DNA of 49,136 nt from Galbibacter marinus (GTDB lineage Bacteria > Bacteroidota > Bacteroidia > Flavobacteriales > Flavobacteriaceae). Each line of letters opens with the position of its first letter. The first letter of the stretch is position 1. The DNA lies in the NCBI RefSeq assembly GCF_000300875.1, contig NZ_AMSG01000022.1:1-49136 (forward strand), in the 5' to 3' direction. This document shows, piece by piece, positions 14,611 through 19,947 of this stretch. The notes under the pieces were generated by a model that was not told where the DNA came from, made no database searches, and saw only the letters and a program-made list of their open reading frames with translations. The position numbers and the translations under genes are program-made.

Positions 14611-15477
14611 TTAATATTCTAACATCGATTTATAATCAGCTTTACTAACGCTCATATTTTCTTTAGAAAACTCAATACATTTCATGCTATAGGTATCAGC
14701 ATTTTTTTTGCTAGGTATAAATTCCATCTCCATCATCATTGATTTTCCATCCATTGGAATGAAGGTGTTAGGGAGACTGTTGTCTGTATTAAAAAGTCCA
14801 CTGTTAAACCCTACAGGTGTTTGATCAGTTACCCAAATTTTTGAAACACCGTCTTGTGTGGTGAATTCATATCCTTTGCAATGATAGCCTAAGATGGTTT
14901 TGCTTTCTATTTCTACAAAGTCAATATTCTCAGGTTTTGATTCTTCTTCAGCATTTTCAAGTATCTTTTTAAATAATTGATTATCGGTTCGCATAGGCAT
15001 TATTAATCTTTGATCATCCGTATGCATAAACATGGTCATGCTTTGGTTGTCTAAATCTAGTACCGTAAGGTTGTCTTCGCCGGTCTGGGTTATTTTCGTC
15101 CCAAAATAACGTACATCAGGTTCAAGCCAATATTCCAATTGATTTTTATCATTTTTGGAGGTGATTTCCATTACCGCCTTATAAGAGAAACTATACTGAT
15201 CAGGAATGTTATCGATATTTCCGCCACCAAATAAGGATTGAATGCTTTGTTGCATATTCTTAGAATTCTGATCCGCCTGGTTTTCATCCCCCTGAGATTC
15301 TATCATTGAGTCAATAGCATCATCTGTAGCTTCTGATACTTCTTTTTCTGTTCTATTTAAAACGGTTTGTTCAACGGCTTCTCCAGCTTTCTTTTTCAGC
15401 TTTTTCAAAAATTGCGCCTCAGTAGGGGTCACAAAGCACAAAAGAATTAATACGGTAAGGAATTTAATTGATTTCAT
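14611..15477 (-). CDS. Secreted DUF4412-domain protein
   Basis: A 288-residue protein with a signal peptide (MKSIKFLTVLILLCFVTPTEA) followed by a charged, helical segment (about residues 22-75) and a beta-rich region with LEYWLEPDVRYFGTKI and the segment GYHCKGYEFTTQDGVSKIWVTD typical of DUF4412. The family has no assigned biochemical role; members are exported and found mainly in Bacteroidota. The gene stands alone on the minus strand, divergent from the pheA leader. Confidence 0.72.
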   Translation of the reverse strand: MKSIKFLTVLILLCFVTPTEAQFLKKLKKKAGEAVEQTVLNRTEKEVSEATDDAIDSMIESQGDENQADQNSKNMQQSIQSLFGGGNIDNIPDQYSFSYKAVMEITSKNDKNQLEYWLEPDVRYFGTKITQTGEDNLTVLDLDNQSMTMFMHTDDQRLIMPMRTDNQLFKKILENAEEESKPENIDFVEIESKTILGYHCKGYEFTTQDGVSKIWVTDQTPVGFNSGLFNTDNSLPNTFIPMDGKSMMMEMEFIPSKKNADTYSMKCIEFSKENMSVSKADYKSMLEY

Positions 15478-15833
15478 AACTTTTGGAATTACTAATGATC
15501 TTTTAAAGTTAACAACATTATGTTTAAATTGCTTTAGAATCCGTGAGTTACCATTGTTATTCGGTGAATGGTATTAAATAACTCTCCAATAAGACCTAAT
15601 TTAAGCACTTCTAAGTGTTTTGGTTGTTTTGTAAAGACTCAATAGAGGGAGTATTAAGGAACTGTATTACCGAGAAACATTTTAAAGTCGCCCTATATTC
15701 GTATTTAAAGGTTGCTTTTGAAATCAAATCGTTAAAAAAAGTTATATTTTATCAGAAAATGAAAAAAATTGAGGGACTAGGGTTTTATATTTCAAATTAA
15801 TAGTTACTTTAGCACCACAGACATCAAGAGATC
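15478..15833. other. Divergent intergenic region between the DUF4412 gene and the pheA leader
   Basis: No supported gene is seen. A minus-strand TAACTTTA (plus 15504-15511) could serve the DUF4412 gene. For the plus strand, TACTTTAG at 15805-15812, with a T-rich TTTTA about 18 nt upstream (15783-15787), is a plausible promoter that would start transcription roughly 15-20 nt before the leader ATG. Confidence 0.4.
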
Positions 15834-15911
15834 ATGTTTACAAACGCTTATAACTGGAACTTTTATTTTTTCTTCTTTTACTTTTTTAAGAGAGGAACGG
15901 GACTGTTGTAG
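15834..15911 (+). CDS. Aromatic-rich attenuator leader peptide of the pheA operon
   Basis: A 25-codon reading frame from ATG 15834 to TAG 15909-15911. Of 25 residues, eight are Phe, three Tyr and one Trp; codons 10-18 read F-Y-F-F-F-F-Y-F-F without interruption, then KRGTGLL and stop. This is the architecture of a ribosome-stalling leader peptide. Codons 22-24 (ACG GGA CTG) contain the antiterminator strand, so a ribosome that reaches the stop codon blocks it. The downstream genes make phenylalanine and tyrosine, matching the codons sensed. The frame is too short for normal gene calling. The reading is direct; that it is translated is inference. Confidence 0.88.
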   Translation: MFTNAYNWNFYFFFFYFFKRGTGLL

Positions 15912-15966
15912 GTATTTGTAATAAAAATAATATGTTAGTCCCGGAAGAAATTTCGGGACTTTTTTT
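15898..15966 (+). terminator. Phe/Tyr-responsive transcription attenuator (antiterminator and terminator)
   Basis: The terminator is a 10-bp stem (15937-15946 with 15951-15960, one G-U pair) closed by a GAAA tetraloop and followed by Ts to 15966. The 7-mer CGGGACT of its 3' strand (15954-15960) also occurs upstream at 15898-15904, at the end of the leader peptide. That copy can pair with AGTCCCG at 15937-15943 and prevent the terminator. Stalling at the Phe/Tyr codons leaves the upstream copy free, so reading continues; full translation covers it and transcription stops 18 bp before pheA. Confidence 0.88.
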
Positions 15967-15983
15967 ATGATATAAACTCAGAA

Positions 15984-16811
15984 ATGAATAGGAAAATTGC
16001 AATACAAGGAATATTAGGATCTTTTCACCATCAAGTGGCTCAGGAATACTTCGGTCAAGATGCTGATGTAGATGAATGCTTGTCATTTGACGCCTTAGTT
16101 GATAGTCTGATGAGTAAGAAAAGTTCAGTAGCAGTGATGGCTATTGAAAACTCCATCGCTGGTTCTATTATTCCAAACTATGCCCGCATTGATGACAATG
16201 ACCTGCATATTATCGGGGAGCACTACATTAGTGTACACCACAATTTATTAGCCCTAAAAGGACAATCTATCTCAGATATTAAAGAGGTTTATTCTCATCC
16301 TATGGCTTTACTACAATGTAAGGCTTTTTTTAGGCAATATCCCCACATAAAATTAATTGAAGATGTGGATACGGCAGAGGTTGCAAGAAGAATACACCAA
16401 GGACAATTAAAAGGAATTGGAGCCATTGCAAGTAAAGCAGCCGCTTCCATTTTTGAATTGGACATCCTAGCAGAGAGCATTCAGACAATGACTAATAATG
16501 CGACCCGATTTGTGATTGTTCAAACGCAGAATTCTGTAATTCCTATTGAAGAAATTAATAAAGCATCCGTAAAGTTTGAATTAGGTTCCAAACGAGGAAG
16601 TCTCGCTACAGTTTTAAATGTAATGAGTGATTGTAAACTAAATTTAACCAAGATTCAATCCTTACCGAAAATTGAAACCCCTTGGCGGTATTCATTTTTC
16701 GTGGATGTGACCTTTGAGGATTATGCAGATTTTCAAAAAGCGAAATCTTTATTAGCCATTATGGCATCAGAATTTAAAGTTCACGGAGAGTACATAAATA
16801 CAATGCGATGA
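15984..16811 (+). CDS. pheA: Prephenate dehydratase
   Basis: A 275-residue monofunctional enzyme converting prephenate to phenylpyruvate. The catalytic domain (about 1-185) contains AIENSIAGSI, a segment VYSHPMALLQC and the active-site motif NNATRFVIV. A C-terminal ACT domain (about 195-275) has RGSLATVLN at the GALV position, but the usual Phe-binding ESRP motif reads QSLP. There is no fused chorismate mutase; that activity sits on the last gene of the operon. The gene is first after the attenuator and overlaps the next by 4 bp. Confidence 0.93.
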   Translation: MNRKIAIQGILGSFHHQVAQEYFGQDADVDECLSFDALVDSLMSKKSSVAVMAIENSIAGSIIPNYARIDDNDLHIIGEHYISVHHNLLALKGQSISDIKEVYSHPMALLQCKAFFRQYPHIKLIEDVDTAEVARRIHQGQLKGIGAIASKAAASIFELDILAESIQTMTNNATRFVIVQTQNSVIPIEEINKASVKFELGSKRGSLATVLNVMSDCKLNLTKIQSLPKIETPWRYSFFVDVTFEDYADFQKAKSLLAIMASEFKVHGEYINTMR

Positions 16812-17959
16812 TAAAAGTAGCAGATCGTTTAAAAAGCGTCGAAGAATATTACTTCTCTAAAAAGTTAAGAGAGGTAGGTGGTTTAATTGCTCAAGGCAAA
16901 CCGGTTATTAATATGGGGATTGGTAGTCCAGACCTAGCGCCAGCTGACCAAGTACTAGAAGCACTTGTGAGTTCACTGGGAGATGAGAAAGCACACCAAT
17001 ACCAATCCTATCAAGGATTGCCAGAACTAAGAAAAGGAGCATGCTCGTTTTATCAGCAGTATTTTGATGTGAGTTTAGATAGCAATACTGAGGTGTTGCC
17101 CCTTATGGGTTCTAAGGAAGGGATCATGCATATTAGTATGGCTTTTTTAAACCCGGGTGACCAGGTCTTAATACCGAATCCAGGATATCCTACCTATACT
17201 TCTGTGACTAATTTGGTCGGGGCCGTGGCAAAGTATTACGATTTAAGTCAAGACTCGAATTGGTTACCAGATATCAAAGCGTTGGAACAAACAGATCTTT
17301 CTAAAGTGAAGATTATGTGGTTGAGTTATCCACACATGCCTACAGGAGCAAACGCTAATGTGGAAATCTTTAAAGAATTAGTTGACTTTGCAAAACGAAA
17401 TGATATTCTTTTAGTGAATGACAATCCATACAGTTTTGTTCTAAACGAAAATCGATTGAGTTTGCTTTCAGTGGATGGAGCTAAGGATGTTGCATTGGAA
17501 CTTAATTCCCTGAGTAAAACTTTTAATATGGCAGGCTGGAGAGTTGGATTTGTTTTTGGAAGTACCGATCATATAGGAGCTATTCTAAAGGTGAAAAGCA
17601 ATATGGACAGTGGAATGTTTTACGGATTGCAAAAAGGAGCCGTTAAGGCATTGGAATTATCCAAGGACTGGTATGCAAATTTAAATCAAGTGTACGCCCG
17701 CCGTAGAGAGCTTATCTTTCAATTGGCCGATAAATTAGGTTGTACGTATGATACAAGTGCCTCTGGTATGTTTGTTTGGGCTAAATTACCAGAAGGAATT
17801 CACTCAGCTGAAGAATTTATTGACGGTGTACTTTACGACAAAAGCATATTTATTACTCCTGGAACCATATTTGGAAGCCAAGGGGAAGGATATATTCGTT
17901 TTTCTTTATGTGTCAAAGAAGCACAAATTCAACAAGCGATTCAACGATTTAAAGCTTAA
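16808..17959 (+). CDS. PLP-dependent aminotransferase, probably aromatic amino-acid transaminase
   Basis: A class I/II aminotransferase of 383 residues. The PLP-binding lysine lies in LNSLSKTFNMAGWRVGF, with NPGYPTY, SYPHMPTGA and a C-terminal YIRFSLC motif. It overlaps pheA by ATGA, so translation is probably coupled. Lying between pheA and tyrA, it most likely transaminates phenylpyruvate and 4-hydroxyphenylpyruvate to Phe and Tyr. Its sequence type also resembles LL-diaminopimelate or aspartate aminotransferases, so the substrate is inferred from position. Confidence 0.85.
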   Translation: MIKVADRLKSVEEYYFSKKLREVGGLIAQGKPVINMGIGSPDLAPADQVLEALVSSLGDEKAHQYQSYQGLPELRKGACSFYQQYFDVSLDSNTEVLPLMGSKEGIMHISMAFLNPGDQVLIPNPGYPTYTSVTNLVGAVAKYYDLSQDSNWLPDIKALEQTDLSKVKIMWLSYPHMPTGANANVEIFKELVDFAKRNDILLVNDNPYSFVLNENRLSLLSVDGAKDVALELNSLSKTFNMAGWRVGFVFGSTDHIGAILKVKSNMDSGMFYGLQKGAVKALELSKDWYANLNQVYARRRELIFQLADKLGCTYDTSASGMFVWAKLPEGIHSAEEFIDGVLYDKSIFITPGTIFGSQGEGYIRFSLCVKEAQIQQAIQRFKA

Positions 17960-17993: not shown

Positions 17994-18854
17994 ATGAAAG
18001 TACTGGTAATAGGATTAGGACTCATAGGTGGATCAATGGCCATCGATTTAAGAAGCACTAGAAAAGATGTAGTGCTTTTGGGATATGATGCCAATGAACA
18101 GCATCTAGATGCAGCGCTATCGCTAGGATTAATCGATCAGAAGGCAGGTTTGCAGGATGCTGCTTCAGTTGACGTTGTTATAGTAGCTATACCAGTAAAT
18201 GTGTCTTTAAAGGTGATTCCTAGTGTTTTGGACATCGTAAAAGATGACACATTGGTCTTTGATGTTGGCTCAACAAAAGCAAATATTTGTAAGTTGATAA
18301 GTGAGCATCCAAACCGAAGAAATTTTTTAGCTGCTCACCCTATTGCAGGTACTGAGTATTCAGGACCACAGGCTGCTATAAGAGGCTTGTATAAGGGTAA
18401 AACAAATATTGTTTGTGAGGTAGAAAAAACGGCGTTCAAAGTACAGGAACTTGCCATGGATATTTTTAATGATCTTGGGATGCGAATTCGGTACATGGAA
18501 CCAAAGGCTCACGATCGCCATATTGCCTATGTGTCACATTTATCTCATATCAGTTCTTTTATGCTGGGTAAAACCGTGATTGATAAGGAGCGAAATGAGC
18601 GCGATATATTTGATATGGCGGGAAGTGGATTCGAGAGTACGGTACGTTTAGCCAAAAGTTCACCTGCTATGTGGAGTCCAATATTTGAGCAAAATAAAGA
18701 TAATGTAATAGAAACTCTTGAGGAGTATATTGTGAATCTCCAACGATTTAAACAGCTCATGGAATCAAATGACTTTGAGGCCATTTACAGAGAGATGGAG
18801 GACACCAACAGGATTAAAGAAATATTAGAAGGAATAACAATCAAATCATCATAA
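17994..18854 (+). CDS. tyrA: Prephenate dehydrogenase
   Basis: A 286-residue enzyme oxidatively decarboxylating prephenate to 4-hydroxyphenylpyruvate, the Tyr branch. An N-terminal Rossmann fold carries GLGLIGGSMA, then DVGSTKANI, AAHPIAGTEYSGP with its catalytic histidine, and the helical C-terminal domain with HDRHIAYVSHLSHI. No ACT or chorismate mutase domain is fused. It is the third gene of the attenuator-controlled operon, with a 34-bp gap before it and 10 bp after it. Confidence 0.93.
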   Translation: MKVLVIGLGLIGGSMAIDLRSTRKDVVLLGYDANEQHLDAALSLGLIDQKAGLQDAASVDVVIVAIPVNVSLKVIPSVLDIVKDDTLVFDVGSTKANICKLISEHPNRRNFLAAHPIAGTEYSGPQAAIRGLYKGKTNIVCEVEKTAFKVQELAMDIFNDLGMRIRYMEPKAHDRHIAYVSHLSHISSFMLGKTVIDKERNERDIFDMAGSGFESTVRLAKSSPAMWSPIFEQNKDNVIETLEEYIVNLQRFKQLMESNDFEAIYREMEDTNRIKEILEGITIKSS

Positions 18855-18864
18855 GTATTTTAAA

Positions 18865-19947
18865 ATGGAAAATTCAGCAACGTTAAGAACATGGTTAGAT
18901 GATATGAACCTGTCGCACCCTTTGGTGATTGCAGGGCCATGTAGCGCAGAAACAGAAGAGCAAGTGCTAAAGATTGCACACGAACTAAAAGGAACGGATG
19001 TCAATTACTACCGTGCAGGTATTTGGAAACCTAGAACACGTCCAGGAAATTTTGAAGGTGTTGGAGCTTTAGGATTAAAATGGCTGCAAAAGGTAAAAGA
19101 AGAGACAGGTTTAAAAACAGCTACTGAGGTAGCTAACAAAGCCCACGTAGAATTAGCATTGGAGCACGATGTGGATTTGTTGTGGATCGGAGCGCGTTCT
19201 ACTGTGAGTCCTTTTATTATACAGGAAATTGCAGATGCTTTACACGGAACCGATAAAATTGTTTTAGTGAAAAACCCAGTGAACCCTGATCTGTCTTTAT
19301 GGTTAGGTGGGATAGAGCGTTTGTACAGTAGCGATATTAAAAATCTAGGTGTGATTCACAGAGGGTTTTCCACTTATGAAAAATCAAAATACAGAAACAA
19401 TCCTGAGTGGCAATTAGCCATTGAGCTTCAGAATAAATTTCCGGATCTTCCGCTGATATTGGATCCTTCGCATATTACTGGTAAGAGAGATATGATATTT
19501 GATGTTTCTCAAACAGCATTAGATTTAAACTATGACGGTTTGATGATTGAGACCCATACCGATCCAGACAATGCATGGAGTGATGCTGCGCAACAGGTGA
19601 CTCCAGATTCTCTCAAACAAATCATGAGAGATTTGAAAATCAGAAAGGAAACTGATCAGGAAGCAGATTACAATAATAAGCTTACAAATTGCCGTGCTCA
19701 GATAGATGTGATTGATAATGCACTTATCGAGATGCTCGGTAAGAGAATGAAGGTGTCCGATCAAATTGGTGAATTGAAAAAGCAACGTAACGTAGCTGTT
19801 TTACAATCAAAACGATGGAATGAAATCCTAGGTAATATGGTTTTAGAAGGTGATCAAGTTGGACTGAGTGAGGAATTCATCCTTCGCATCTTTAAGGCGA
19901 TTCACCAAGAATCGATCAACCATCAACAGAAAATTGTACAGCAATAA
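18865..19947 (+). CDS. Bifunctional DAHP synthase / chorismate mutase
   Basis: A 360-residue fusion. Residues about 1-255 are a DAHP synthase of the KDO8P-synthase-like class (AGPCSAETEEQ, GIWKPRTRPGNFEG, LILDPSHITGKRD), which starts the shikimate pathway from PEP and erythrose 4-phosphate. Residues about 270-352 are an AroQ-type chorismate mutase (CRAQIDVIDNALIEMLGKRM, and a later KRWNEIL helix). The protein thus catalyses the first step and the branch-point step, and supplies prephenate to the PheA and TyrA encoded just upstream. Such fusions often use the mutase domain as the allosteric sensor. It is the last gene of the operon. Confidence 0.92.
   Translation: MENSATLRTWLDDMNLSHPLVIAGPCSAETEEQVLKIAHELKGTDVNYYRAGIWKPRTRPGNFEGVGALGLKWLQKVKEETGLKTATEVANKAHVELALEHDVDLLWIGARSTVSPFIIQEIADALHGTDKIVLVKNPVNPDLSLWLGGIERLYSSDIKNLGVIHRGFSTYEKSKYRNNPEWQLAIELQNKFPDLPLILDPSHITGKRDMIFDVSQTALDLNYDGLMIETHTDPDNAWSDAAQQVTPDSLKQIMRDLKIRKETDQEADYNNKLTNCRAQIDVIDNALIEMLGKRMKVSDQIGELKKQRNVAVLQSKRWNEILGNMVLEGDQVGLSEEFILRIFKAIHQESINHQQKIVQQ

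Follow-up and report, generated by a model that had tools for sequence, protein, structure and literature searches.

A Probable Ribosome-Mediated Attenuator with Mixed Phenylalanine and Tyrosine Codons before the pheA Operon of Galbibacter marinus and Its Relatives

Introduction

Between pheA and its upstream neighbor in Galbibacter marinus, a member of the Flavobacteriaceae, lies a short open reading frame crowded with Phe and Tyr codons and followed by a terminator. Is this leader a ribosome-mediated attenuator, of which kind is it, and how far among the relatives does it extend? The locus was studied in a stretch of 49,136 nucleotides (positions 1–49,136 of contig NZ_AMSG01000022.1, hereafter the window), for which the original prediction, made from the sequence alone, had proposed an attenuator in a minimal, three-strand version. 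Leader-peptide attenuation is textbook control of proteobacterial amino-acid operons; little was found for Bacteroidota among the matches listed in our literature search, chiefly a study of Flavobacterium psychrophilum (PMC9723704). In 2010, the accessible part of one article counted only Proteobacteria and Actinobacteria as groups with demonstrated leader-peptide systems, with ermC as the exception, and itself added Firmicutes (PMC2965389); a survey of the same year by Lopatovskaya and others, cited in PMC4833913, may cover Bacteroidetes. A candidate pheA motif of Actinobacteria (PMC2864571) and, for Bacteroides thetaiotaomicron, long 5′ UTRs with short ORFs that recall leader peptides (PMC7366714) are mentioned in the portions available of two further papers.

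The Leader and Its Operon

Read base by base, the frame is what it had been taken for: 12 of its 25 codons are aromatic (8 Phe, 3 Tyr, and 1 Trp), and nine Phe/Tyr codons follow one another without a break (table 1). The identities of the four operon genes likewise bear out the claim that the genes downstream make Phe and Tyr. The closest named pheA genes belong to Galbibacter and Joostella (83–86% identity). The order pheA-aminotransferase-tyrA was kept in all 80 named loci, and the DAHPS-CM gene came next after tyrA in 76 of the 80, the downstream DNA being short in the other 4. The gene 5′ of the leader (14611–15477) is divergent, on the minus strand, so the terminator of the leader does not end the transcript of that neighbor.

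TAnnTTTG is the flavobacterial −7 consensus, and a candidate element of this type stands before the frame. Allowing one mismatch at most, 182 of 183 loci had the motif 55–8 nt 5′ of the leader ATG, compared with 106 of 183 for a control stretch placed another 60 nt upstream; exact matches numbered 41 in the promoter stretch and 9 in the control stretch of the same loci. The motif is weak, and as backing for a predicted promoter it is supportive only. Two side observations concern the surrounding DNA. Another GGGACT at 15773–15778, 5′ of the presumed promoter and outside the leader RNA, is probably a coincidence, and a SAM riboswitch (RF00162, 73.2 bits) was found at 197–310, near the start of the window.

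Table 1. Positions in the window of the parts of the pheA leader and its operon
Feature	Position	Strand	Description or basis
Candidate promoter −7 element	15805..15812	+	TACTTTAG, TAnnTTTG type; sequence motif
Leader peptide ORF	15834..15911	+	25 codons, MFTNAYNWNFYFFFFYFFKRGTGLL then stop; read from sequence
Regulatory codons 10–18	15861..15887	+	nine Phe/Tyr codons without break; read from sequence
Protector hairpin (strand 1:2)	15838..15921	+	folding, covariation
Antiterminator strand 2	15898..15904	+	CGGGACT, copy of the terminator 3′ strand, within codons 22–24
Antiterminator hairpin (strand 2:3)	15898..15943	+	folding; core pairs covary across genomes
Intrinsic terminator (strand 3:4)	15937..15966	+	GAAA loop, U tract; terminator scan, folding
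pheA, prephenate dehydratase	15984..16811	+	PDT domain; ACT match below its cut-off
Class I/II aminotransferase of the pheA operon	16808..17959	+	
tyrA, prephenate dehydrogenase	17994..18854	+	
DAHP synthase-chorismate mutase (DAHPS-CM)	18865..19947	+	

The RNA downstream of the run can form hairpins that exclude one another. The terminator, as had been seen at the outset, has 10 pairs (AGTCCCGGAA-GAAA-TTTCGGGACT, 15937–15960) and then T6; its MFE was −14.6 kcal/mol (z −3.9 vs. shuffles). The second copy of CGGGACT, claimed as the alternative antiterminator, was supported by both sequence and covariation, and it starts 10 nt after the last aromatic codon, just past the run, where stall sensing had been said to need it. 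The 7-nt copy itself stood, while folding gave the antiterminator a larger extent (15898–15917 with 15925–15943): 15898–15905 pairs with 15936–15943, extended by 15907–15910/15931–15934 and 15913–15917/15925–15929, with an MFE of −16.6 kcal/mol at 37 °C (z −3.7 vs. shuffles). Folded by itself, the leader ORF forms a long hairpin, in which codons 2–9 and part of the Phe/Tyr run pair with the strand bearing CGGGACT. The protector hairpin joins 15838–15844 to 15915–15921 and 15846–15857 to 15903–15913 around an inner stem (15870–15880/15887–15897), and its MFE was −23.6 kcal/mol (z −4.4 vs. shuffles). Because this stem is stable and covaries, the leader has four strands, and the minimal three-strand version was not borne out; a layout of three strands only was dropped once the covariation of the protector had become evident.

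Conservation within the Family

The 189 loci compared comprised 109 family genomes (the window's own included; 178 had a pheA match) and 80 named records, two sets between which species overlap is possible. As a leader we counted any ATG-started ORF of 8–70 codons that lies no more than 450 nt from pheA and has a stretch of 10 codons of which 6 or more are Phe/Tyr. We found such a leader before pheA in 184 of the 189 loci (window included) and on the reverse strand in 1 of 189. Upstream of 606 other ORFs (at least 150 codons, both strands, from the 80 named loci and the window), 4 reached the same definition, two of them being pheA itself (L069 and L109), which leaves 2 of 604. Among the loci scored as lacking a leader, contig ends leave just 37 nt of upstream DNA in L040 and 150 nt in L094, and in L133 (seen again as L231) the leader lies further up, at −458. 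In L166 (= L232, G023) and L187 (G035, 376 nt searched), pheA is apparently without an aromatic leader. The script placed a terminator in the interval from leader to pheA in 183 of the 184 leader loci; in the sole miss (L111), inspection by eye showed an imperfect hairpin and a T tract. The proposed comparison with relatives, which looked for a kept frame and compensatory changes in the stems, thus came out in favor of the prediction. As far as sequences can tell, the comparison indicates that a leader normally precedes pheA in the family examined and often does so in other families.

The composition of the DNA was also considered. When the 450 nt before pheA were shuffled 2,000 times with dinucleotides preserved, ATG-started ORFs of 8–70 codons contained at most 7 Phe/Tyr per 10 codons, against 9 in the real leader. 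Seven consecutive Phe/Tyr codons matched 8 times in the window's own genome (3.57 Mb, 80 contigs), at 5 places and all on one strand, and the backward control of the pattern gave 3 + 3 matches, so that Phe/Tyr runs by themselves are not rare in this genome. An in-frame ATG (the sole start codon considered) was present at 1 of the 5 places, the pheA leader, and the other four runs were rejected as leaders because they have none.

Covariation of the Stems and Spacing of the Run

Searching for an exact copy gave too low a count for the antiterminator, because many genomes use a G-U pair, and a pairing search with controls was used instead. A score of at least 14 was reached by the strands of the same genome in 165 of 183 loci, by strands of different genomes in 32%, and by base-shuffled leaders in 8.5%; choosing the best-pairing helix biases the search towards the model, and the swap and shuffle controls were handled alike. 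Three of the six core positions switch in the antiterminator and the terminator alike (C-G to U-A and G-C to A-U), while the sixth core position of the antiterminator was paired in only 94 of 139 rows. These 139 rows are distinct, and six more without a recognizable core were left out. Two loci with helices of fewer than five pairs (L145 and L165) were left out of the core-position, spacing, folding-state, and leader-fold (z) analyses, and of the protector part of the analysis that scored the promoter motif.

The antiterminator strand holds its distance to the aromatic run and not to the stop codon. In 152 of 170 distinct leaders, 8–13 nt lie between the last aromatic codon and the start of the strand (sd 3.3 nt), whereas its position relative to the stop codon has an sd of 8.2 nt and ranges from within the ORF to past the stop. 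Given the size of the ribosome footprint, a distance of 8–13 nt is roughly what would be needed for the strand to stay uncovered while the last aromatic codon occupies the A site.

The protector was compared in 15 Galbibacter-like sequences chosen by peptide resemblance. Its consensus stem had 87.6% paired cells, and its covariation was 0.387, against 0.219 (sd 0.020) with shuffled partners and at most 0.147 with slid partners. Pairs with two-sided changes numbered 8 versus 6.3, a count that was reached in 72 of 500 shuffles and is not telling alone. In a 45-sequence set from another group (A2), the consensus retained just a short inner stem, and no pair in it changed on both sides; the set is so uniform that it is a poor test of the protector. 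Across 148 distinct leaders, the leader region was more stable than its shuffles, with a median z of −2.7 and 72% of values under −2. The covariation argues for the classical four-strand layout at least in the window's group, and outside it the protector is predicted from folding energies.

Interchange of Phe and Tyr and the Place of Trp

In 46 disjoint pairs of close leaders, 17 of the 24 single-base amino-acid changes at aromatic codons were between Phe and Tyr, where mutation alone predicts 8–14%. Twelve multi-base changes at these codons were set aside (3 Phe-Tyr, 2 Phe-Trp, and 7 to other residues). Judging from these substitutions, the aromatic codons are under selection as codons. A response to both Phe and Tyr had been suggested from codon content, and the evolutionary interchange of the two supports it further. 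Moreover, all 148 distinct family peptides contain Tyr, with 6–11 Phe/Tyr codons per peptide.

The leader might also sense Trp and thus read all three aromatics of the pathway that the operon's DAHP synthase opens. Trp occurs in 89 of the 148 distinct family peptides, mostly beside the run or a few codons before it, and at one position of a 45-sequence alignment, 28 sequences have Trp, 8 have Phe, 1 has Asn, and 8 have a gap, though TGG to TTT takes two changes. However, 59 of the 148 peptides have no Trp, a single codon would be a weak sensor, and these counts come from related sequences and are not independent. In the window's group TGG is invariant, but it lies inside the protector stem, so its conservation there may come from RNA pairing. 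We regard Trp sensing as an unlikely extension, yet one of some plausibility, of a leader that would respond to Phe and Tyr.

Folding States and Proposed Mechanism

The enterobacterial pheL and trpL attenuators have a four-strand layout. What is expected of a classical attenuator in sequence was found here as well: an ORF with codons for the product, a terminator, an antiterminator that excludes it, the spacing between them and the run, and, in the window's group, a protector. Based on these features, the pheA leader is very probably (about 93%) a ribosome-mediated transcription attenuator of the classical four-strand kind.

From the parts of the leader, we infer a promoter, translation, stalling, termination, and a response to starvation, in the following order. 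RNA polymerase would start shortly 5′ of the frame, and a ribosome would translate the leader. If charged tRNA-Phe or tRNA-Tyr were scarce, the ribosome would stall within codons 10–18, break the protector stem, and free the CGGGACT strand, which could then pair with the emerging 5′ strand of the terminator. The terminator would be blocked, and pheA, the aminotransferase gene, tyrA, and the DAHPS-CM gene would be transcribed. With both tRNAs plentiful, the ribosome would reach the stop codon (15909–15911) and cover CGGGACT, allowing the terminator to form; after release of the ribosome, the protector stem would hold CGGGACT too.

Folding at 30 °C was calculated for 170 leaders. When the RNA was free starting 9 nt beyond the last aromatic codon, 163 of them gave the antiterminator a probability above 0.5 before synthesis of the 3′ strand. 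With the ribosome at the stop codon, the terminator exceeded 0.5 in all 170, the probability of the antiterminator being zero there because its strand is covered. In truncated RNA free of ribosomes, the antiterminator still formed in 121 of the 170. For the full RNA at equilibrium with a stalled ribosome, the median probability of the terminator was 0.92 (stall on the last codon) and 0.88 (mid-run), and the values for the window were 0.72 and 0.26, respectively. Since the terminator is likely at equilibrium despite the stall, the switch must be partly kinetic, resting on the order of synthesis.

Alternative Explanations

In TnaC-type leaders, arrest of the ribosome is driven by the peptide. 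By the same token, the nascent chain of the pheA leader could itself stall the ribosome, perhaps with free Phe or Tyr as co-effector, and the peptide is indeed similar among many Flavobacterium loci. Over the family, however, the length, order, and flanks of the run vary and Phe and Tyr replace each other, yet an arrest peptide should keep its residues; the near-fixed feature is the spacing from run to antiterminator. Such an arrest is therefore improbable.

Another mechanism would dispense with the ribosome, the ORF being incidental to an attenuator made of RNA only or bound by a protein (a riboswitch, a T-box, or the target of an RNA-binding protein). A structured leader with mutually exclusive hairpins would suit it. 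Against it, no Rfam family matched the leader RNA at gathering scores, and at E up to 10 the 23 matches were all under their own cut-offs, with the T-box absent. Phe_leader (RF01859) reached 20.9 bits against a gathering score of 55 and Trp_leader (RF00513) 18.4 bits against 41. The lowest E-values belonged to MicC (E 0.013) and tsr26 (E 0.012), which lay far under their gathering scores and were taken as chance. Moreover, the aromatic codons appear to be selected as codons, and the arm sequences differ between families while the run is kept. Thus, a mechanism without the ribosome is even less probable than peptide-driven arrest.

Finally, a chance run beside an ordinary terminator, conceivable in AT-rich DNA where Phe/Tyr runs (backward control included) are not rare, is practically discounted by the scarcity of such frames on the reverse strand and before other long ORFs, by the shuffles, and by the presence of the leader in a stretch of 56% GC (L247).

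Distribution beyond the Family

A ribosome-mediated attenuator was also sought before pheA in 52 further loci, two of which were second looks at genomes already counted (L231 and L232). Order and class labels are the kinship labels of the genome collection, and the class holding these loci we take to be Bacteroidia (GTDB). A leader within 500 nt was found in 31 of the 52: in 5 of 6 from the own family, 9 of 19 from other families of the order, and 17 of 27 from elsewhere in the class. Among the 31, a terminator was found by script in 26 and antiterminator pairing of at least 14 in 23. Inspection by eye showed an imperfect hairpin and a T tract in three of those lacking a scripted terminator (L198, L229, and L240), and in L205 neither script nor eye found one, so that its leader is doubtful. 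Three others (L191, L192, and L194) had a Phe/Tyr score of only 5, yet possess a terminator and a long antiterminator. The gap from run to antiterminator was 6–14 nt in the 26 terminator-bearing loci, and the arm sequences differ by group, e.g., GAGCGGTC/GACCGCTC and GAGGCTTTT/AAAAGCCTC.

One locus (L236, about 289–514) carries two tandem frames with aromatic runs before a single pheA, MLQTRFFFGYYYFYAAA and MPICIMVPTQQVFFTYGYYFFYLKKPARCCQC. Each is followed by a hairpin that resembles a terminator by eye; script and terminator scan reported none.

Several loci of the order were without a leader, including all 4 of family f5, in which pheA is distant. Further loci of the class had one in 3 of 3. 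Outside the class, 15 of 17 phylum-level loci were without a leader, and the 2 with one were those whose pheA was the most similar of the 17. It is conceivable, though we would not give it even odds, that the aromatic attenuator of the pheA operon is old and extends across much of the class. Its interchangeable Phe/Tyr (often Trp) codons would then report a shortage of any aromatic, with the arms rewritten in each family and the run, spacing, and logic kept.

His and Trp Leaders of the Same Genome

Other amino-acid genes of the window's own genome were inspected by eye. On contig 3 (L243), the frame MKLYNVHHHFYTGTQAR (then stop), with HHH, precedes hisG and is followed by a GC-rich hairpin and a T tract; on contig 12 (L244), the frame MRTIRKNTWWWYNLRQMS (then stop), with WWW, precedes trpE and is followed by a hairpin and a T tract. 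They are probably a His and a Trp attenuator, respectively. Inspection by eye showed no cognate leader before ilvD or a second chorismate-binding gene, so that 2 of the 4 genes looked at have one. The hisG and trpE leaders fit a habit in which the identity of the codons follows the product of the operon.

Comparison with Known Systems

The probable attenuator is ordinary in kind, and signs of it have already been noted in a related species, F. psychrophilum. There, 64 structured 5′ regions were described, with clues to leader-peptide attenuation before amino-acid operons; the structured elements before pheA and hisG occur in other genera too, without Rfam hits (PMC9723704). The pheA element there concerns the same gene and family as the leader of the window. 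In its available portion, that account specifies neither a peptide nor alternative stems nor a Phe/Tyr content for pheA, all of which are added here together with the covariation and the other families (PMC9723704). Among the matches listed, judged by titles and the starts of abstracts and with subscription journals mostly outside their scope, we found no description of a pheA leader peptide in Bacteroidota.

Similar arrangements are known from other lineages. The pheL and trpL leaders and AroR, a leader with Phe-Tyr-Phe, are described in PMC11802643. In the accessible text, AroR of Corynebacterium glutamicum likewise carries its motif before an aromatic operon (aroF), but it belongs to another phylum and another gene, its motif is short, and Tyr availability is reported as irrelevant there (PMC11802643, citing Neshat 2014). 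In Acholeplasma, uORFC-13-1 before aroF likewise combines a proposed Phe-dependent uORF, a terminator, and an aromatic gene; it differs in lineage and gene and is likened here by description, not by sequence (PMC8632094, as far as available). The enterobacterial pheL-pheA and trpL systems, as outlined in the part available, likewise place a leader peptide with codons for the product before a terminator, and pheL, too, controls pheA (PMC11802643).

The present comparison yields a data set with three covarying RNA strands, and the mixed codons raise the question of whether one leader can pool the signals of two or three amino acids. To our knowledge, pheL of E. coli has Phe codons and no Tyr codons. 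In contrast, Tyr is part of every family peptide compared here, and the operon also contains tyrA and the DAHPS-CM gene. What is new beyond the enterobacterial examples is the wide distribution of the leader and its mixed Phe/Tyr(/Trp) codons.
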